The translations under genes and the position numbers were made by a program. This document shows positions 28,486 to 36,728 of a stretch of DNA of 64,000 nucleotides, one piece after another. Below the pieces are notes generated by a model that saw nothing but the letters and a program-made list of their open reading frames with translations, was not told the origin of the DNA and searched no databases. Positions within the stretch are counted from its first letter, which is position 1; each line of letters starts with the position of its first letter. Location of the stretch: positions 2,108,001-2,172,000 of the forward strand of contig CP014771.1 of the NCBI GenBank assembly GCA_001596155.1. The letters run 5' to 3'. Source of the DNA: Hymenobacter psoromatis (lineage in GTDB: Bacteria > Bacteroidota > Bacteroidia > Cytophagales > Hymenobacteraceae).

Positions 28486-29527
28486 TAGCGAATTCGCAAA
28501 CGCTTAAACCGCTTTTTGGGCAGGTTTGGTGTGGTAGCCACAATGGTCAAACCAGTTTTGGGCGTCCTGACTACTAATCCAGTCGATGGCCTCACGTACG
28601 GCTTCTTTTAGGGCCTCGTAGGAACGGGCGGCGCAGGTGCGCAGCTTGGTTTTGAGCTTGCTCCAGGCCTGCTCGATGGGGGAAAAATCGGGGGAGTACG
28701 GGGGCAGAAAGACCACGTCCACGCCCCGCTTGGCCAGCCACTCGCGCAGGCCCGCGAGGTGGTGCACGGGCAGGTTGTCGAGCACTAGCACATCGCCCCG
28801 GCGCAGGGTGGGGGCCAGGCACCGGCCTACGTAGAGGGCGAAACTGTGCTTGTTGAGGGGCTGATGGAGCAATTGCAGGGCTCCAAGCCCGCGCACGGAC
28901 AGCGTACCAATAAGGGTGTAGGAGCGGCCCCGACGCAGCGGCACGGCCCCCCGGACGCGTTGCCCACCCACCGCCCGGCCGTGGGTGCGGGCGTAATCCA
29001 GCCGCAAGCCCGTCTCATCCAGAAAATGGAACCGGGCAACATCGGGGCGGGTGCAGACCTGTTCGACATGGTCCTGACGGGCCTGGCGTACGCGCTCGGT
29101 GTCGCGTTCAGCCGCGTGGGGGCTTTTTTTTTCGCCGCAGCTCGTGTTCGTCCAGCACTTGCCAGAGGCAGGTTTGGCCCACGGGGCGGCCCCCGCTGGC
29201 CTGCCAGGCCTGGTTTAGCTCGGCCAGCGTAGCATCGGGGTGTTGCGCCACGTAGGCCACGAGCCAGGCTTGGGCGGCGGCATCGAGGTAGCGGGCCCGG
29301 CCGCCACTGGCCGGTTTGGGGGCCAGTGAGCCGGTTTGTTGCTGCTGGCGAACCAGGCTTTTGACAAAGGAGCGGCTCACATCGAAGCGCCGGGCAACGG
29401 CGGCTTTTTTGGCCCCCGGCTCCTGGCAGGCCGCCGCCACCCGGGTACGTAAATCAAGCGAGTACGGGTTCATAAACGCTAATACGACAAGTAACTGATA
29501 GTGGCTTAACTGTTTGCGAATCCGCTA
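28486..29527. mobile_element. Third IS630-family element, inserted in the second
   Basis: 1042 bp with imperfect inverted ends TAGCGAATTCGCAAAC (28486) and GTTTGCGAATCCGCTA (ending 29527), flanked by duplicated TA (28484-28485, 29528-29529). It is G+C-rich, unlike the other two, and is the youngest of the nest. Confidence 0.9.
28504..29473 (-). CDS. IS630-family transposase in two frames across an A9 run
   Basis: The first frame (29473-29108, 121 aa) starts MNPYSLDLRTRVAAACQEPG and carries a helix-turn-helix (AVARRFDVSRSFVKSLVRQQ). It ends just after RRKKKPPRG. The catalytic frame continues from the same A9 run (29124-29132) as KKSPHAAERDTERVRQARQD, then HFLDETGLRLDYARTHG, VLVLDNLPVHHLAGL and LPPYSPDFSPIEQAWSKLKT (DDE residues) to 28504. 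With eight A's the frame would be continuous, so transcriptional slippage on the A-run, or a one-base expansion, joins the two. Otherwise the element looks intact. Confidence 0.88.
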
Positions 29528-29654
29528 TATCTGTTGAGACAGATAAAGAATCTATTTTAGAAGCTATTAAAGCAAACAGACAACGTACCCAAACGGCCAA
29601 AGCGGAATGGGAACAGGAAACGAACAAGTCGGTTAGTCTACGCACATTCAAAGC

Positions 29655-29661
29655 TTTTTTA
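29655..29661 (+). promoter_or_regulatory. -1 ribosomal frameshift heptamer TTTTTTA
   Basis: In the zero frame of the second IS transposase the bases read GC-T-TTT-TTA, an X-XXY-YYZ slippery site. The -1 frame continues uninterrupted into the DDE domain, while the zero frame stops soon after at TAA. Confidence 0.65.
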
Positions 29662-30293
29662 AAAGTCTTGGCGGACGATATAAACGCATAAGGAAACGGT
29701 GCAAAGGGGAACCCTGCCCGGAGATATACGCGCTAAAAAAAGAGCAACTGGCTGAACTAGAGAATCTTTACGAGCAAGGTTTTGTGGACTTATTGTACGG
29801 AGATGAAAGTCATGTTTGTAGTACGGGTTATGTTCCTTACGGCTGGCAATTTCCGGGAGAAGTGGTTTCAACAGGTGTTGAGAAGGGCTATAAAATAAAT
29901 ATCTGGGGACTCATCAACCGACGCAATGAAACGCATTGGGTAATGACCGAAAAGAATATTAACGCACAGTTCATATTTACGCAATTAGAAGAGATATCCT
30001 TTCAACTTAAAAAGCCAACGTTCATTGTATTGGATAATGCAAGTATGCACAAAGCCCAGCTTATCCAACAGCAACTACCCTTTTGGGAAGAACGAGGCTT
30101 GTACCTATTTTACTTACCTACGTATTCACCGCACTTGAATCTGGCGGAAACGCTTTGGCGCAAATTAAAAAAAGAACAGCTTGACCCAGCTGATTATCAT
30201 ACGAAAGATACCCTGTTCTATGCAGTTAATCGTTGCTTAGCACAAGTAGGAAATTTATGGAAGGTAAATTTCTCCAAATTTAACATAATCTAA

Positions 30294-30635
30294 TTAGCGC
30301 CGGCTACTTACTTCCCGCAAACTTTGCGGATTTAGCTTTATTTGTTCTTTGAGGTCGTCGACTTGCTCCGGCATTAAATCTTTTAACGGTGCTTTTAACC
30401 CGCGACCCGCTTTTATTTTTAACCCGAGAAAACCCTCCTGCTCGTAGCGGTGTAGCCAGTCGTAAATTATTCGTGTCCGTGTTTTGTAAATTAAGGCCAA
30501 TTCTTTTACCTCAAAACCGGCTGAACTGAGTAAAATACATTGACAGCGTTCTCGGAAATACAATTTCTTGCCGTTTTGTTTGCCTGCTTCGATTGTCTTT
30601 TTTTCTTCCTCGGGAAGATTTAATATGTATAGCAT
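30294..30635 (-). pseudogene. N-terminal part of the outer IS630 transposase
   Basis: From ATG 30635: MLYILNLPEEEKKTIEAGKQ, then a helix-turn-helix region (FEVKELALIYKTRTRIIYDW) and LGLKIKAGRGLKAPLKDL. It ends at a TAA after LREVSSRR, next to the insertion point of the second element; the remainder is at 27497-28196. The TAA would be CAA (Gln) in a working copy. Confidence 0.85.
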
Positions 30636-30771
30636 AAAGCAAAGGTAAACAACTATTGAAAAAATGACGATTATTTGCCGACAACCACTTAATCCAACGG
30701 TTAGGAAAGATTGCCGCGCTCCACTTCGCCCTTGCTTGATGCGCAACATGCTCGCAATGACAACTGGTGCC

Positions 30772-31842
30772 CTACCCCTTCATCACCCGCTCCTGGCGCA
30801 TAACCGATTCCAGGTGAACGGCTTCCATGTAGCGCTCCACAAAATCTTCGGTGAGGCCCACTTGCGCACCCTGGCGCTTGCTGCGCTCCAGAATCTCGGT
30901 GAGGCGGGCGGTTTGCAGGATGGTGATGTCGTTTTCCTTCTTGTATTGGCCGATTTTTTCGGCCACGGCCATGCGGCGGCCCAGCAGTTGCATCACCTCG
31001 GCATCAAGGTTGTTGATTTGCTCGCGCAGGCCGGCCAGGGCGGTCAGGTATTCGGCTTTGTCGGTGGTTTCGTGGCGCCACACTAGGCCCTGAATGAGCT
31101 GGCCCAGCGCCTCGGGCGTAATCTGCTGCTTGGCATCGCTCCAGGCATTATCGGGGTCGATGTGGCTCTCAATCATCGTCCCGTCGAAGTCCAAATCCAG
31201 CGCCTGCTGCGCCACGCCGAACAGCGTATCGCGCCGGCCGCAGATGTGGCTGGGGTCATTGAGGATGGGCATGTCGGGCAGCCGGCGCTTCATTTCGATG
31301 GGCAGGTGCCACATGGGCGCGTTGCGAAAATCGGTGTTGCCGTAGCTCGAAAAGCCGCGGTGAATCATGCCCACCTGCTTCAAACCGGCTTTTTGCAGGC
31401 GCTCGATGGCCCCCACCCACAGCTCCAGCTCGGGATGAATGGGGTTTTTGACCAGCACCGGAATGTCCACGCCGCGCAGGGCATTGGCGATTTCCTGCAC
31501 CGAAAACGGGTTGCCGGTGGTGCGCGCGCCCACCCACACCAGGTCCACGCCAAAGGCCAGGCAGTCTTCGACGTGCTTAGCGGTAGCTACTTCCACGGCC
31601 ACCGGCAGGCCGGTAAGCTCACTGGCTCGCTTGAGCCAGGGTAGGCCTTTAGCCCCTACCCCCTCGAAGCCGCCGGGTTTGGTGCGGGGCTTCCAAATGC
31701 CAGCGCGCAGGGCCTGCACCTTGCCAGTGGCGGCCAGCCGCTGGCAGGTTTCGAGCACCTGGGCTTCGGTCTCGGCCGAGCACGGGCCGGAGATGAGGAA
31801 GGGCTTATCCTCGGGTTTGCGGTTGAAGAGGTCGTTGAACAT
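30772..31842 (-). CDS. Bifunctional DAHP synthase / chorismate mutase
   Basis: 356 aa from ATG 31842 (MFNDLFNRKPEDKPFLISGP). The first 260 residues are a type I-beta DAHP synthase joining phosphoenolpyruvate and erythrose-4-phosphate: SGPCSAET, LRAGIWKPRTKPGGFEGVG, VWVGARTTGNPFSVQEIA, HRGFSSYGN and NDPSHICGRRDT. The C-terminal 90 residues form a chorismate mutase helix bundle (LREQINNLDAEVMQLLGRRM, EKIGQYKKENDITILQ). It is the last gene of the pheA-aminotransferase-tyrA operon and supplies both entry to the shikimate route and the branch to prephenate. A start at 31899 would add 19 residues lying in intergenic repeat DNA. Confidence 0.93.
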   Translation of the reverse strand: MFNDLFNRKPEDKPFLISGPCSAETEAQVLETCQRLAATGKVQALRAGIWKPRTKPGGFEGVGAKGLPWLKRASELTGLPVAVEVATAKHVEDCLAFGVDLVWVGARTTGNPFSVQEIANALRGVDIPVLVKNPIHPELELWVGAIERLQKAGLKQVGMIHRGFSSYGNTDFRNAPMWHLPIEMKRRLPDMPILNDPSHICGRRDTLFGVAQQALDLDFDGTMIESHIDPDNAWSDAKQQITPEALGQLIQGLVWRHETTDKAEYLTALAGLREQINNLDAEVMQLLGRRMAVAEKIGQYKKENDITILQTARLTEILERSKRQGAQVGLTEDFVERYMEAVHLESVMRQERVMKG

Positions 31843-31877
31843 GGGGGTAGGGAAGTAGCGCGAAGTTTCCACTTCAT

Positions 31878-31977
31878 GCACGAGCGCAGCGAGTATCATC
31901 GTCTGCGTGCGTGCCAGGGGTTGAAAATGAAGGTATTGAGTAGAATGAGCAGGCGATGATACTCGCTACGCTCGTGC
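31878..31977. repeat. Inverted repeat between tyrA and DAHP synthase genes
   Basis: 24-bp arms at 31878-31901 and 31954-31977 with one mismatch (core agcgagtatcatcg). It lies inside the operon, so it may act as an mRNA hairpin rather than a terminator; there is no T-run. Confidence 0.75.
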
Positions 31978-32005: not shown

Positions 32006-32854
32006 TTAGGGAATGATTTTTCGGATTTCGTTGGCGTGTTCAAGCTGGGTGGTCAGCCCGGCGTAGTCCTCCTGCACCAGCAGCTCACGCAGCTTATGGA
32101 GCTGCACCAGGTGCTCGTCGAGCACGTCGAGCAGGTTGTGGCGGTTTTGGCGGAAAATGGGTATCCAGGTGGCCGGCGCGCTCTTGGCCAGCCGCACGGT
32201 GCTGGCAAAGCCGCCGCCCGCCAAGTCAAAAATGCGCTGTTCGCCGCGCCGCTCCTTTTCCAACACCGTGAGCGCCAGCGCAAACGAGGTAAGGTGCGAG
32301 ATGTGCGACACGTAGGCCGTGTGCAGGTCGTGGTCGGCCGCGCCGAGGTGCATCACGCGCATGGGCAAGGCTTGAAACAGCGCCTCTACGGTAGCCACGG
32401 CGTCGGGGTCGCTGGCGGCCGCGTCGCACACAACCAGCGTTTTGCCTTCAAACAAGCCGCGCACGGCCGCGTCGGGGCCCGAGTATTCGGTGCCGGCCAT
32501 CGGGTGCACGGCCACGAAGCGGCCCCGGCGCGGGTGCCCGGCCACGGCCGCCAGCAGGTTGCCTTTGGTCGAGCCCACGTCGATAACCAACTGCTGGTCA
32601 GTTAGCAGGTCCAGCACCTGCGGCAGCACGGCCAGCATCGCATCCATCGGCACGGCCACGATGACGAGGCCGGCCGGGGCCACGGCGCTGGCCAGGTCGG
32701 GGTCAATCTCATCGACCAGGCCCAGCTCCAGCGCCCGCTGGGCGTAGGGGGGGTAGGCCTCCACGCCAATGAGGCGGTCGGCCAGGCCGTGCTGCCGCAG
32801 GCTGAGCGCTAGCGAGCCGCCGATGAGGCCCAGGCCGATAATGGTGATGGTCAT
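32006..32854 (-). CDS. tyrA: Prephenate dehydrogenase
   Basis: 282 aa. TyrA oxidatively decarboxylates prephenate to 4-hydroxyphenylpyruvate using NAD(P). The Rossmann motif is at the N-terminus (ITIIGLGLIGGSLALSLRQH), followed by VAVPMDAM, VIDVGSTKGNLLAAV, the substrate region AVHPMAGTEYSGPDAA, and the helical half with DHDLHTAYVSHISHLTSFAL and RLAKSAPATWIPIFRQNRHN. There is no ACT domain. It lies third in the aromatic operon, 70 bases after the aminotransferase stop. Confidence 0.95.
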   Translation of the reverse strand: MTITIIGLGLIGGSLALSLRQHGLADRLIGVEAYPPYAQRALELGLVDEIDPDLASAVAPAGLVIVAVPMDAMLAVLPQVLDLLTDQQLVIDVGSTKGNLLAAVAGHPRRGRFVAVHPMAGTEYSGPDAAVRGLFEGKTLVVCDAAASDPDAVATVEALFQALPMRVMHLGAADHDLHTAYVSHISHLTSFALALTVLEKERRGEQRIFDLAGGGFASTVRLAKSAPATWIPIFRQNRHNLLDVLDEHLVQLHKLRELLVQEDYAGLTTQLEHANEIRKIIP

Positions 32855-32870
32855 TTGATTAAAAATTAAA

Positions 32871-32991
32871 AAAGGCCGTCATGCTTCATCTGGCGTCCGC
32901 TTGTCGAAGCATCTCTACCGCGTAACTACTTAATGCCATTGCAACGAAGCGGTAGAGATGCTTCGGCAGGCTCAGCATGACCGTTCTTTTT
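32871..32991. repeat. Palindromic repeat overlapping the 3' end of the aminotransferase gene
   Basis: An imperfect inverted repeat: left arm 32871-32921, right arm 32951-32991, core gaagcatctctaccgc. It belongs to the gtcatgctgagc family. The last about 20 codons of the aminotransferase are inside the right arm. Confidence 0.8.
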
Positions 32992-34155
32992 AGCTCCTAT
33001 CTCCAACACCCTCCCTAGCGCCTCGCGCAGCACGCTCTCCGGCTGGCAGAGGCTGGCGCGCACGTAGCCATTTCCGTTGCTGCCGAAGATGCCGCCGGGC
33101 GTCAGAAACACGCGGGCTTCGGCCAGCACGGCGTCGCTCAGGGCGTAGCCGTCGGCATAAGGCGGCGGCACGGCGGCCCAGATGAACAGACCCACCTGGC
33201 CGGGCGCGGGCGCGCAACCCAGGGCGCGCAGCAGCGCCACCACCAGCTCGCGCCGGGCGCGGTAGGTGGCGTTTAGCTCCGCAAACCAGTCGGGGCCGAG
33301 CGCCAGCGCCGCCACGGCCGCCTGCTGCGTGCCCAGAAACATGCCTGAATCCATGTTGCTCTTGAAACGCAGCACCTCGGTCAGCCAGTCGGCGCGGCCC
33401 ACCAGCATCCCTACCCGCCAACCGGCCAGGTTATGGCTTTTGCTCAAGGAGTTAAGCTCTAACGCTACCTCTCGCGCCCCCGGAATGCTGAGCAGGCTCG
33501 TCGGCGGCGTCTCGTTCAGCACGAAGCCGTAAGGGTTGTCGTGCACCAGCATAATGCCGTGAGCCGTGGCAAATTCGACCAGCTTTTGCAGAAATTCGGG
33601 GCTGGCCGGCGTGCCGGTGGGCATGTGCGGGTAGTTAACCAGCATCATTTTCACCCGGCTTAAATCACTCTGAGCCAGCGCGTCCAGGTCGGGCAGCCAG
33701 CCAGTGGCGGCGGTCAGGTCATACGCGCGCACCTCGGCCCCGCAGATTTCGGCCACCGCCCGGTAGGTGGGGTAGCCGGGGTTTGGGATTAGCACCGCGT
33801 CGCCGGCCTCCAGAAAGGTCATGCCAATGTGCATCAGGCCCTCTTTGGAGCCGGCCAGCGGCAGCACTTCGGTGGCCGGGTCGAGGGCCACGCCGTAGCT
33901 TCTCTGGTAAAAACCGGCCATTGCCTGGCGCAGCGCCGGGGTGCCCTGGTAGCTTTGGTAACCGTGCGCGCCGGGCTGCTCAGCGGTAGCCGCCAGGGCC
34001 GCCACCACGCTCGGGTGCGGCGGCAAATCGGGGCTGCCGATGCCCAGGCTGATAATATTGGCCCCGGCCGCGTTGAGGGCGGCCAGCTCGCGCAACTTGC
34101 GCGAGAAGTAGTATTCGCCGGTGTGGGCCAGGCGGCGGGCAGTGAGGATAGTCAT
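32926..34155 (-). CDS. Class I/II PLP-dependent aminotransferase of aromatic amino acid synthesis
   Basis: 409 aa. A fold type I aminotransferase: GIGSPDLPPHPSV, SYQGTPALRQAMAGFY, PLAGSKEGLMHIGMTFLEAG, PNPGYPTYRAVAEICGAEVR, the PLP Lys in LNSLSKSHNLAGWRVGML, and TPGGIFGSNGNGYVRASL near the end. It probably transaminates phenylpyruvate and 4-hydroxyphenylpyruvate, given its position between pheA and tyrA. The last residues (NGHAEPAEASLPLRCNGIK) are encoded by the palindromic repeat, so the original protein probably ended near residue 390. Confidence 0.92.
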   Translation of the reverse strand: MTILTARRLAHTGEYYFSRKLRELAALNAAGANIISLGIGSPDLPPHPSVVAALAATAEQPGAHGYQSYQGTPALRQAMAGFYQRSYGVALDPATEVLPLAGSKEGLMHIGMTFLEAGDAVLIPNPGYPTYRAVAEICGAEVRAYDLTAATGWLPDLDALAQSDLSRVKMMLVNYPHMPTGTPASPEFLQKLVEFATAHGIMLVHDNPYGFVLNETPPTSLLSIPGAREVALELNSLSKSHNLAGWRVGMLVGRADWLTEVLRFKSNMDSGMFLGTQQAAVAALALGPDWFAELNATYRARRELVVALLRALGCAPAPGQVGLFIWAAVPPPYADGYALSDAVLAEARVFLTPGGIFGSNGNGYVRASLCQPESVLREALGRVLEIGAKKNGHAEPAEASLPLRCNGIK

Positions 34156-34171
34156 TCTATTACAAACTAAA

Positions 34172-34288
34172 AACGAATGTCATGCTGAACGAAGTGAAGC
34201 ATCTCTACAACCTCGTTTTGCCATCATTTACCGATTGGTTTACTGCTGCACGCGAGATGCTTCACTGCGTTCAGCATGACGTTCTTTC
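34172..34288. repeat. Palindromic repeat overlapping the 3' end of pheA
   Basis: Imperfect arms ending in gaatgtcatgctgaacg on the left and cgttcagcatgacgttctt on the right, with gagatgcttcactgcgttca inside. The right arm encodes the last residues of PheA (ERHAERSEASRVQQ). Confidence 0.78.
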
Positions 34289-35142
34289 AGGTCCATTTCG
34301 GCAACCACTTCCTGCCCAAACTCCATGCTGCCGCGCTGGTACGCGCCCAGCACCCGCAGCTCTTCGGTCACGGCGGGCAGCTCGGCCAGCAGGTCCGCCA
34401 GCTGGGTAGGCGCGTCAAACTCCACGTCGGCGTGGAAGCCGTAGTGCCAGGGCTGGCTGGGGCGCGGGCACGACTGCAACTTGCTCAGATTCAGGCCGTG
34501 GCTAGCCACCAGCGTGAGCACCCGCGCCAGCGTCCCCGGCGCGTGGGAGGTGTAGAAATAAAGGGAAGCCTTGTCGGGGTGGGCCACCGGCCGGGCCTCG
34601 GCGGCGCGCGCCAGCACCAGGAAACGGGTGTAATTATGGGGGTCGTCGTTGATGGCCGGGGCCAGGATTTCCAGCCCGAACGCCTCGGCCGCCTGGGTAC
34701 CGGCCACCACGGCCACGCCGGGCGGGCGGCTTTCGGCCAGGCGCTGGGCGCTGAGGCCGGTATCCTCGGTTTCGACGAGCTGCCAGGTGGAGTGCTGGCT
34801 CAAAAAATCGCCGCATTGGCGCAGGGCCATCGGGTGCGAATGCACGGCCCGCACATCGGCCAGCGTGGTGCCGGGCAGCGCCAGCAGGTGCTGGTGAATG
34901 GGCAAATACACCTCGCCGGTGATGGTGAGGGCGTTGCGTTCCAAGAGCAGATAATTAGGTAAGATGCTGCCGGCCAGCGAGTTTTCCATTGCCATCAGGG
35001 CCGCCCCGGCGCGGCCGTCGGCCACCTGGGCCACCACCTCGCCAAAGGTGGCGCAGAAATTCAGCGTCGGGGCCGCCCCGAAATACTGGCGGGCGGCTAC
35101 TTCGTGAAAACTGCCTTGAAACCCTTGGATGGCGACTTTCAT
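34240..35142 (-). CDS. pheA: Prephenate dehydratase
   Basis: 300 aa from ATG 35142 (MKVAIQGFQGSFHEVAARQY); an earlier start at 35223 would add non-homologous residues from the leader region. PheA converts prephenate to phenylpyruvate. Catalytic-domain motifs: AIQGFQGSFHE, ALMAMENSLAGSI, VHSHPMALRQC, DTGLSAQRLAE and NDDPHNYTRFLVLA (the TRF motif). The C-terminal ACT domain (SLYFYTSHAPGTLARVLTLV, GLNLSKLQSCPRPSQPWHYG) gives feedback inhibition by Phe. It is the first structural gene of the aromatic operon and lies behind a Phe/Tyr leader-peptide attenuator. Confidence 0.95.
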   Translation of the reverse strand: MKVAIQGFQGSFHEVAARQYFGAAPTLNFCATFGEVVAQVADGRAGAALMAMENSLAGSILPNYLLLERNALTITGEVYLPIHQHLLALPGTTLADVRAVHSHPMALRQCGDFLSQHSTWQLVETEDTGLSAQRLAESRPPGVAVVAGTQAAEAFGLEILAPAINDDPHNYTRFLVLARAAEARPVAHPDKASLYFYTSHAPGTLARVLTLVASHGLNLSKLQSCPRPSQPWHYGFHADVEFDAPTQLADLLAELPAVTEELRVLGAYQRGSMEFGQEVVAEMDLKERHAERSEASRVQQ

Positions 35143-35228: not shown

Positions 35229-35260
35229 AAAAAAAGCGCCACTCGGAGAACGAGTGGCGC
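35229..35260 (-). terminator. Attenuator terminator upstream of pheA
   Basis: On the minus strand GCGCCACTCG-TTCTC-CGAGTGGCGC (perfect 10-bp stem) followed by seven T's, 87 bases before the pheA start. Bases 35247-35255 can instead pair with 35292-35300, which would prevent terminator formation. Confidence 0.9.
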
Positions 35261-35298
35261 GGCTAATTTTTTGGGGCTTAGCTACAGGACGACTCGTT

Positions 35299-35352
35299 CT
35301 ACGCGGGCGGCGTAAAATAATAGAAGCCAAAAAAGTAGCGGTTGCTGAGCAT
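35299..35352 (-). CDS. Phe/Tyr-rich leader peptide of the pheA operon
   Basis: 17 aa: MLSNRYFFGFYYFTPPA, with four Phe and three Tyr in eight positions. It precedes an intrinsic terminator, and bases at its stop codon (35292-35300) are a perfect 9-nt complement of the terminator stem/loop (35247-35255). In classical attenuation, ribosome stalling on Phe/Tyr codons when charged tRNA is scarce would favour the antiterminator and allow transcription of pheA, the aminotransferase, tyrA and the DAHP synthase. A promoter TTG-N19-TACCTTG lies just upstream. The codon bias, order and pairing are seen directly; the regulation is inferred. Confidence 0.8.
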   Translation of the reverse strand: MLSNRYFFGFYYFTPPA

Positions 35353-35373
35353 GATAGGTGCTGAATCGGGTAG

Positions 35374-35402
35374 CAAGGTAGATAGAATTTTGGGAAATGC
35401 AA
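35374..35402 (-). promoter_or_regulatory. Putative promoter of the attenuated aromatic operon
   Basis: On the minus strand TTG (35402-35400), 19 bases, then TACCTTG (35380-35374), close to the Bacteroidetes TTTG-N19-TAnnTTTG form. Transcription would begin about 15 bases before the leader peptide ATG. Confidence 0.45.
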
Positions 35403-35435: not shown

Positions 35436-36728
35436 CTACCGCACAAAAAAAGGCACGTTGCCGGTAGCCACATTGCCGTGCCCATCGTGGGCATAAATAA
35501 ATAAGCGGTAGGCCCCCGGCTGGCTGGGCGCGGTGAGGGTGGTTTGGCCGGTTGCCCCGGCCGGCAGAGCCCCCGCCAGGGGGGTAGGGCGGTTTTCGCG
35601 GTCGCCGCCCTGCCCGAGGTCGGTGCTTTCGGGCAGCAGCTCCCACTGGTAGGTCAGCGCGTCGTGGTCGGGGTCCGTCACGGCGGCCTGCGCGGGGTAG
35701 GGCTGGCCGGGCTTGAGATATATGCCAGCCGTAGCTACCTTACCATCAAGGGTTAAGGAGCTAATGTGGGGGGCGCGGTTTTTCGGGTAGTGGCCACTCC
35801 ACTCATATTCCAGCACGTCCATCACCTCCGTCTCCTCGCCAGCTTCGGTGAAGAGGCCGTACCAGGTGGGCGTGCGCTCCTGCTTCTGGCCCCACAAAAA
35901 CACGTAGGAGCCCAGGCAGTGCGCCCGGTCCTGCACCACCGAAGCCTCGTAGCGGCTCTTGTACACGGCGGCTTTCTGGCTGCTGGTTTCCTCCACCGAG
36001 GCTTTCCAGGGGGTTTGGGGGCCTTCCCAGTGGCCGGTGGGTCCCCACTCGGTCACGAGGTAGGGGCCGGCCCAGCCGGCTTCGCGGATTTGCTGCGGCA
36101 GCGTGGCCAGCCCCGCGTAAGTGTTGACGCTCAGGATATCGACGGCCGGGCAGCGGGCCTTTATGTACGCCACTTCCTTCGGCCCTACCCCCGCCAGCAC
36201 GGTCGAGGTCGGGTGGTTGGGGTCCGTTTCGTGAATCATCCGGGCGATGTCGTTCACGGCATCCCATACCTTGGGATTAGTATAGTCGAGGTTCAACTCA
36301 TTGCCAATGCCCCAGAGCAGCACGGCCGGGTCATCTTTGTATTTAAGCACCTCGCCCTTAATCTTTTGCAGCTGCGCGGCCACGGCCGCCGCGTCGTTGT
36401 AGTCGAAGCCGTGGCGCTCGCGGGCCACGTCGAGGCCGAGCATCACGGTGAGGTGGTTTTTGTTGGCCTCAGCCAGCACCTTCGGCGCGTCGCCGGTGCC
36501 CCAGGTGCGGATGGAATTGCCACCGTAGGCCGCGATGCGCTCGGGGTACTGGCTGCCGCCCGCGCCTTTCACGAAGTAAGGCTGGCCGCCTCGCAGCAAC
36601 TCATACTTCCCATTGACCTGACGGACAACTACTTTGACAGGCTTGGCGGGCGGGCCGGCGAGAGTAGGCTGAACAACGAAAGCCAGCGCGGCAACGGCCA
36701 AGCTGAGGGGTAGGAAAAAGTAGCGCAT
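35436..36728 (-). CDS. Exported glycoside hydrolase-like TIM-barrel protein
   Basis: 430 aa from ATG 36728, with signal peptide MRYFFLPLSLAVAALAFVVQ and TLAG. The barrel follows GH2/GH5-type patterns: GGQPYFVKGAGGSQYPERIA, GGNSIRTWGTGDAPKVLAEA, LLWGIGNELNLDYTNP (the GNE acid/base motif), and LVTEWGPTGHWEG (the second Glu, the likely nucleophile). A C-terminal Ig-like domain (QAAVTDPDHDALTYQWELLP) follows. Both catalytic Glu positions seem present, so it probably cleaves a beta-linked polysaccharide in the periplasm. The substrate is unknown. A start at 36884 would add 52 residues without a signal. Confidence 0.82.
   Translation of the reverse strand: MRYFFLPLSLAVAALAFVVQPTLAGPPAKPVKVVVRQVNGKYELLRGGQPYFVKGAGGSQYPERIAAYGGNSIRTWGTGDAPKVLAEANKNHLTVMLGLDVARERHGFDYNDAAAVAAQLQKIKGEVLKYKDDPAVLLWGIGNELNLDYTNPKVWDAVNDIARMIHETDPNHPTSTVLAGVGPKEVAYIKARCPAVDILSVNTYAGLATLPQQIREAGWAGPYLVTEWGPTGHWEGPQTPWKASVEETSSQKAAVYKSRYEASVVQDRAHCLGSYVFLWGQKQERTPTWYGLFTEAGEETEVMDVLEYEWSGHYPKNRAPHISSLTLDGKVATAGIYLKPGQPYPAQAAVTDPDHDALTYQWELLPESTDLGQGGDRENRPTPLAGALPAGATGQTTLTAPSQPGAYRLFIYAHDGHGNVATGNVPFFVR

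Follow-up and report, generated by a model that had tools for sequence, protein, structure and literature searches.

A probable Phe/Tyr leader-peptide attenuator of the aromatic amino acid operon in Hymenobacter psoromatis and its tandem counterparts in the genus

The aromatic amino acid operon in the 64,000-nt stretch of the Hymenobacter psoromatis genome analysed here (hereafter, the window) is preceded by a leader ORF, a terminator and an alternative stem, which, as read from the sequence, very probably constitute a ribosome-mediated transcription attenuator of the classical type that would sense charged tRNA-Phe and tRNA-Tyr. We also consider it likely, with less confidence, that Hymenobacter ancestrally runs this Phe/Tyr operon by two serial Phe/Tyr-sensing attenuators behind one promoter, and that the lineage of the window dropped the second.

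Leader, stems and operon in the window

All of the features of the attenuator and of the operon lie on the minus strand. The leader ORF MLSNRYFFGFYYFTPPA (35352-35299) has 17 codons, of which codons 6-13 read Y F F G F Y Y F (Phe/Tyr at codons 6-8 and 10-13; seven aromatic codons in eight positions). When the 5.45-Mb genome was searched with the pattern of seven aromatic codons, this leader was the sole match; the backward control pattern gave two matches, and thus a rare pattern does not by itself decide the matter. The 1:2 hairpin (35297-35317), formed by TTTTACGC (35317-35310) and GCGTAGAA (35304-35297), covers the end of the leader together with its stop codon. The intrinsic terminator (35260-35229), GCGCCACTCG-TTCTC-CGAGTGGCGC followed by 7 U, was assigned from the sequence and the folds; its 10-bp stem (35260-35251 with 35245-35236) is perfect, seven T follow (35235-35229), and it stands between the leader and the first structural gene, pheA. 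The antiterminator consists of the 5' arm AGAACGAGT (35300-35292), complementary to 35255-35247, and the 3' arm ACTCGTTCT (35255-35247), assigned from this complementarity and from covariation (see below). Since the 9-bp antiterminator overlaps the 5' arm of the terminator, the two structures are mutually exclusive. Its overlap with the 1:2 hairpin is only about 4 nt, and in the folds a shortened 1:2 hairpin can coexist with it; the 1:2 hairpin would therefore be a weak, partial anti-antiterminator. A small linker hairpin (GCTAA/TTAGC, 35262-35282) was predicted in the folds in the interval from the antiterminator 5' arm to the terminator, and many loci of the tandem group described below have a putative GTTTG/CAAAC pairing instead. 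The predicted folding energy of the leader RNA (138 nt) was -41.5 kcal/mol, against -26.9 +/- 3.3 kcal/mol in 200 shuffles (z -4.4). Tested alone against dinucleotide shuffles, the antiterminator of the window is borderline (p = 0.0498), and it becomes convincing because it is conserved in the genus and the class.

Downstream, Pfam matches gave, in this order and on one strand, pheA (prephenate dehydratase; 34240-35142; PF00800, 1.8e-52, with ACT below the cut-off), an aminotransferase of class I/II (Aminotran_1_2; 32926-34155; PF00155, 8.7e-60), tyrA (prephenate dehydrogenase, PDH_N/PDH_C; 32006-32854; PF02153, 2.1e-32, and PF20463, 4.7e-20), and a DAHP synthase-chorismate mutase fusion (DAHP_synth_1 + CM_2; 30772-31899, putative start; PF00793, 4.6e-35, and PF01817, 5.2e-19). 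By these assignments, the genes behind the attenuator produce the sensed amino acids themselves, Phe and Tyr. The first-pass annotation, made from the letters of the window, had described a 17-codon ORF with seven aromatic codons per eight positions, a strong terminator at 35229-35260, a 9-nt stretch at the leader stop perfectly complementary to the terminator, and this set of downstream genes; the exact reading, the stem, the pairing and the Pfam assignments all agree with it. As a separate observation, the DAHP synthase end of the operon is followed directly downstream by two sets of transposase-like genes (DDE_3 and helix-turn-helix partners; 28504-30749), which we take to be IS630-like, and in the second set the DDE and HTH ORFs are on opposite strands.

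In the mechanism that we favour, RNA polymerase would start about 16 nt before the leader ORF, the start being placed from the promoter motif (see below). When both Phe and Tyr abound, the first ribosome would reach the stop codon and cover GCGUAGAACGAGU, the terminator (35260-35229) would form, and the operon would be off. With Phe or Tyr short, the ribosome presumed to translate the leader would stall on the aromatic codons; AGAACGAGU would then be free and, as long as the terminator still lacks its 3' arm, would pair with ACUCGUUCU, and readthrough should follow. With no ribosome engaged, the 1:2 hairpin and the terminator would be expected. The folds for given ribosome positions were performed with an assumed footprint of 11 nt past the first base of the A-site codon. 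When the whole leader was folded, the antiterminated form was the minimum with codons 6-8, 10 and 11 in the A site; a ribosome at codons 12-13 or at the stop codon, or no ribosome at all, gave the terminator as the minimum. When the folds were cut before the 3' arm of the terminator, the antiterminator was obtained in every state tried, including that with no ribosome, where it stood beside the shortened 1:2 hairpin. The no-ribosome state, for which the full-length minimum is the sole basis, would thus be the least secure step of the mechanism. In its other steps the modelled leader follows the classical scheme, and Phe and Tyr would be sensed jointly ahead of genes for the synthesis of both.

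Conservation and tandem attenuators in Hymenobacter

A scan of species genomes with PheA of the window gave 56 loci, 41 of which were from Hymenobacter or Hymenobacteraceae; two of these (L037 and L054) end before the upstream region, and the remaining ones, together with the window and the same-genus locus L130, made up the 41 usable loci analysed below. Note that L129, of the same genus, was omitted, both of its leaders being equal to those of L020, and that six more same-genus genomes with a PheA match lie outside this set. All of the 41 loci have a counterpart of the F/Y-rich leader (leader A), which is 17 codons long in 39 of them, and these 39 were tabulated codon by codon. Codon 10 is Phe in 15 and Tyr in 24, and codon 11 is Phe in 8, Tyr in 29 and His in 2, the two aromatic residues thus interchanging at both; codon 12 is mostly Tyr (33), with Thr in 5 and Phe in 1, and most codon positions show synonymous changes. 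The interchange and the synonymous changes indicate that the F-or-Y identity is kept, and not one peptide sequence. The C-terminal codons form two groups, TPPA-like and YATA-like, between which the hairpin arm is shifted by one base in the reading frame while the 1:2 hairpin is kept (loop of 5 or 4). This hairpin is present in 41/41 loci, with 8 pairs in 39 and 7 in the other two (L032 and L130), where one U-A pair has become A-U. As judged from these sequences, the pattern suggests that it is the RNA and the codon identity of the leaders that are under selection. The motif RYFFG is well kept within Hymenobacter, and this would suit a nascent-peptide arrest, in which the leader peptide stalls the ribosome on free Phe/Tyr, as TnaC does, and not on uncharged tRNA; arrest of this type, however, would bring induction by excess, which is wrong for a biosynthetic operon. 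Against it stand also the exchange of F and Y in codons 10 and 11, a variable C-terminus (TPPA- or YATA-like) over a kept RNA hairpin, and the leaders of the class (see below), which share F/Y richness. We therefore regard peptide arrest as very unlikely, and stalling for want of charged tRNA as the reading to be preferred.

The antiterminator was found in all of the 41 loci, with 6-9 bp, and reached p <= 0.05 against dinucleotide shuffles in 40 of them, the loci being related and not independent. In the alignment of the 41 loci, 96.6% of the antiterminator cells were paired, compared with 34.6-41.2% after sliding by 1-3 columns. The covariation score was 0.148 versus 0.089 in shuffles, none of the 500 shuffles, which ignore relatedness, being as high; the number of doubly changed pairs (2) was equalled in 81/500 shuffles and that of further pair types in 500/500. 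The outer pair is C-G in 25 loci and U-A in 14, and the two sides of the arm have both been rewritten in L032 and L130 (GTCGGG/CCCGAC and GTCGAG/CTCGAC). As for the terminator stem, 94.1% of the cells were paired, 6 of the 10 pairs were invariant, one pair was mismatched in 24/41 loci, and no covariation beyond shuffles was detected in the 41 loci (26 to 431 of 500, five measures). The first-pass annotation had named conservation of the leader and covariation in both alternative stems of relatives as the check on its reading: the leader ORF, the terminator and the antiterminator are kept, and covariation exceeded that of the shuffles by score (0/500) in the antiterminator but not in the terminator stem. 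Its proposal of classical translation-coupled attenuation for both Phe and Tyr thus gains support from the conserved elements and from the antiterminator covariation, the response itself being what we infer from them.

A promoter of the Bacteroidota type, TTG-N19-TACCTTG (35402-35374, minus strand), was predicted by motif conservation, and transcription would probably start near 35368. The motif TTG-N17-22-TANN(T)TTG, searched within 70 nt upstream, was found for leader A in 33/41 Hymenobacter loci, at 48-51 nt 5' of the leader ATG, for leader B (see below) in 0/26 and for pheA in 0/41, and in 6 of 2460 random 70-mers. In Bacteroidia beyond Hymenobacter, the motif was present within 80 nt upstream of 26/51 leaders and 0/51 pheA genes, and in 16/1400 shuffled 80-mers. 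The conserved promoter thus sits directly upstream of the leader, not of pheA. In Flavobacterium psychrophilum, the box of the main sigma factor is TAnnTTTG and that of a second promoter class is TAnnTTGY (PMC9723704); the box of the window (TACCTTGC, 35380-35373) fits the spelling TAnnTTGY, not TAnnTTTG. The position of the promoter bears on whether the terminator simply ends the upstream gene, with the small ORF and the complementary 9-mer coincidental. A same-strand ORF upstream of the promoter does have its end at 35436, about 175 nt away from the terminator, and the antiterminator of the window alone is borderline (p = 0.0498); yet the conserved promoter separates that gene from the terminator, the leader and the stems are present in 41/41 relatives with compensatory changes in the antiterminator, and leader, terminator and antiterminator recur across the class. 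A chance combination at the end of a gene is extremely improbable on this evidence, and the terminator is best read as part of the attenuator.

In 27 of the 41 Hymenobacter loci, a single promoter is followed by two successive leader-terminator units, an arrangement that the first-pass annotation had missed; the locus of the window has one unit only. Leader B (for example, MVPTQQVFFYYGYYFFYPKKPARCCQC) starts 15-23 nt after the U tract of terminator A when the shortest ORF is taken, and is followed by a GC-rich hairpin and a U tract. The hairpin of type B is formed by the codons for FF (CTTCTTC) and for KK (GAAGAAG), perfectly so in 11/26 loci, and a pairing of GGCCC with GGGCC in terminator B is possible. 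This B antiterminator is less secure than that of A, because it is short (5-8 bp) and beat shuffles at p <= 0.05 in only 7/26 loci, versus 40/41 for A. One locus at variance was that of Hymenobacter negativus (L036), in which, about 221 nt upstream of pheA, the B leader is without the usual stop and reads through the terminator region.

A PheA tree of 45 rows places the tandem locus L130 on the deepest Hymenobacter branch and has the 14 loci with a single unit, the window included, in nested positions, which suggests that the tandem form is probably ancestral in the genus and was lost once or twice; resolution of the forks in the clade of the window is poor in this tree. The second attenuator was thus probably lost in the lineage of the window. 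The ancestral order would read leader A, terminator A, leader B, terminator B, pheA. Outside Hymenobacter, tandem Phe/Tyr leaders with two terminators were found in two Saprospiraceae loci (L044 and L047) and in L141 of another family, perhaps as independent origins. If the serial arrangement is as we read it, repression would be multiplied; with the tandem loci, one- and two-step attenuators of the same genes are available as a natural series.

Surveys of the class, order and phylum

For the class survey, PheA of the window was compared with 296 genomes of Bacteroidia, 84 of which gave a match at E <= 1e-30, and 70 upstream regions were taken; among the 14 matching genomes outside this set are G018 (with a leader) and G033 (without), both seen through the order sample. 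A leader was defined as an ORF that starts with ATG and has 6 or more F/Y among 10 codons, and its terminator was to lie within 150 nt. By these criteria, 54 of the 70 pheA upstream regions had a leader and 38 a leader with a terminator; 14 and 0 of 1400 shuffles, and 1 and 0 of 70 reverse strands, respectively, gave the same. In the other 16 of the 70 loci, no leader with at least 6 F/Y was present. Without the three rows of the same genus, the counts were 51/67 (leader) and 35/67 (leader and terminator). These 35 loci hold 36 leader-terminator units, and the antiterminator reached p <= 0.05 against dinucleotide shuffles in 23 of the 36, against 1/36 for a control segment upstream of the leader. 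Among the loci of the 56-locus PheA scan that were not from Hymenobacter, a leader was found in 6/15.

The order survey used PF00800, which matched 88 genomes; 40 of these, each from a different genus, were sampled (L058-L097). Two types of PheA were seen, one with an IAIQG-like start, which sometimes has an F/Y leader, and one with a VAYLGPEG-like start, which is the majority. No ATG leader with 6 F/Y per 10 codons was found at the VAYLGPEG-type loci of this sample; with a looser criterion (5 F/Y, any start codon), ORFs without terminators appeared in four of them (L060, L082, L095 and L096). Of the 13 loci with PheA of the window type, three had a clear leader, with a terminator in L069 and L089 and none detected in L071, and L088 had a weak leader with a terminator present. 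At L065, L070, L076 and L081, ORFs were found at the looser criterion only and without terminators; the match of L070, 1077 nt away, was left out of the leader count. In the phylum sample, which consisted of the best PF00800 scorers and was not random, a leader was found in 1 of 30 loci (L118). The PF00800 surveys of the order and the phylum are thus considered poor instruments, and the class survey with PheA of the window itself the useful one. Separately, a contig labelled Candidatus Saccharibacteria (L057) carries a Phe-rich leader (MVKKFFGFSFFAPA...) 161 nt upstream of pheA, with a terminator; this could be a binning error.

Leaders of other amino acid operons were also looked for. The genome of the window has an apparent Trp leader (MTFVATVSQSWWPSTFPRG) with a terminator upstream of trpE (G000:C3:4522792-4523232; L216), an apparent Ile/Val/Leu leader (MTLLPVISVVIIPTLAG) with a terminator upstream of ilvD (G000:C3:2425377-2426330; L227), and an ORF ending QQHHHHL upstream of hisG, for which no terminator was detected (G000:C3:841381-841845; L203). 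A leader with a detected terminator was obtained for trpE in 8/10 genomes, for hisG in 3/10, and for ilvD in 2/10 loci (9 genomes; G011 was without a match). The trpE, hisG and ilvD leaders are leads only, because the thresholds were looser and there was no shuffled control. A leader-terminator unit for pheS was found in none of 10 genomes, F-containing ORFs being present in two (L231 and L233).

Relation to known systems

Among the Rfam models, the best low-threshold match of the region was Phe_leader (RF01859), which aligned over its full length (1-125 of 125, from the leader to the U tract) with 32.3 bits (E = 0.00085), below its gathering cut-off of 55 bits. Of 20 loci of the class compared with the same model, five gave 30.7-34.3 bits and the other 15 no match within the limit of E = 0.1. 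We take RF01859 to be the enterobacterial pheA attenuator with its Phe-rich ORF. Likewise a leader-type cis-regulatory RNA for phenylalanine, it differs in that the Tyr codons of the window are about as frequent as the Phe codons and that one switch in the window serves pheA, tyrA and DAHP synthase jointly. The Thr_leader and Leu_leader models also weakly match relatives in the class, and the likeness to Phe_leader is thus one of layout. The linker hairpin, which has no assigned use, might be taken for a sign that a protein- or metabolite-binding RNA (a riboswitch, a T-box or the target of an RNA-binding regulator) acts on the terminator and that the ORF is incidental. No Rfam family reached its gathering score in the 64-kb window, T-box included, none of the six low-threshold matches was a T-box, Phe_leader headed that list for the region, and F/Y-rich leaders are present in 54/70 loci of the class, all of which leaves a binding RNA with hardly any probability and argues for attenuation through the leader ORF. 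The Bacteroid-trp motif (RF01692) is a candidate RNA of Bacteroidetes (PMC2864571), and by its name concerns Trp, in contrast to Phe/Tyr here; it was not found at the gathering score in the window or in the 12 attenuator loci scanned, five of which have trp leaders.

Attenuators of this kind have been discussed in several reports. A survey of 2010 placed leader-peptide attenuation only in Proteobacteria and Actinobacteria, save its own case in Firmicutes and the atypical ermC (PMC2965389); amino acid attenuators may stem from gammaproteobacteria, with few transfers (PMC3766115); small ORFs like leader peptides are mentioned for Bacteroides thetaiotaomicron (PMC7366714); and the portion seen of a study of the his genes of the phylum mentions attenuation for enterobacteria only (PMC8305728). 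For F. psychrophilum, the text seen describes structured 5' elements upstream of pheA and hisG with signs of leader-peptide attenuation (PMC9723704). Its pheA element is in the same phylum, at the same gene and in a transcribed region, with attenuation proposed for amino acid operons and no Rfam hit; the description, as far as seen, gives no leader sequence, stems or amino acid specificity (PMC9723704). The first-pass annotation knew of no characterised example in Bacteroidetes, and in the papers found none is characterised, but the kind had already been noticed in F. psychrophilum (PMC9723704). The attenuator of the window therefore belongs to a known mechanism which, in Bacteroidota, had been noticed before and, in these papers, not characterised. 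Among the open-access literature matches listed, no described Phe/Tyr leader peptide in Bacteroidota was found. A comparative study of attenuation by Lopatovskaya in 2010 may contain predictions for Bacteroidota; for this reason, priority cannot be claimed.

Leader-peptide attenuation has chiefly been known from Proteobacteria and Actinobacteria, and is met here at the aromatic operon of most of the sampled loci of the class. Such switches need the first ribosome close behind RNA polymerase, so that their conservation in genomes is evidence that transcription and translation are coupled in Bacteroidota. If true, attenuators across Bacteroidia imply that this coupling is tight in the phylum, and the attenuator makes it testable there by a simple reporter. 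Bacteroidota is not named in the list of runaway phyla, in the part of that report at hand (PMC13323073). For the tandem loci of Hymenobacter, the mgtCBR operon of Salmonella offers a likeness, having two leader ORFs and attenuators in series on one transcript (PMC3641672). Its signals differ from each other, being ATP and proline (PMC3641672), whereas both leaders of the tandem Hymenobacter loci are Phe/Tyr-rich and the window has one; if our reading is true, tandem leader-peptide attenuators for the same signal would be a novel variant.
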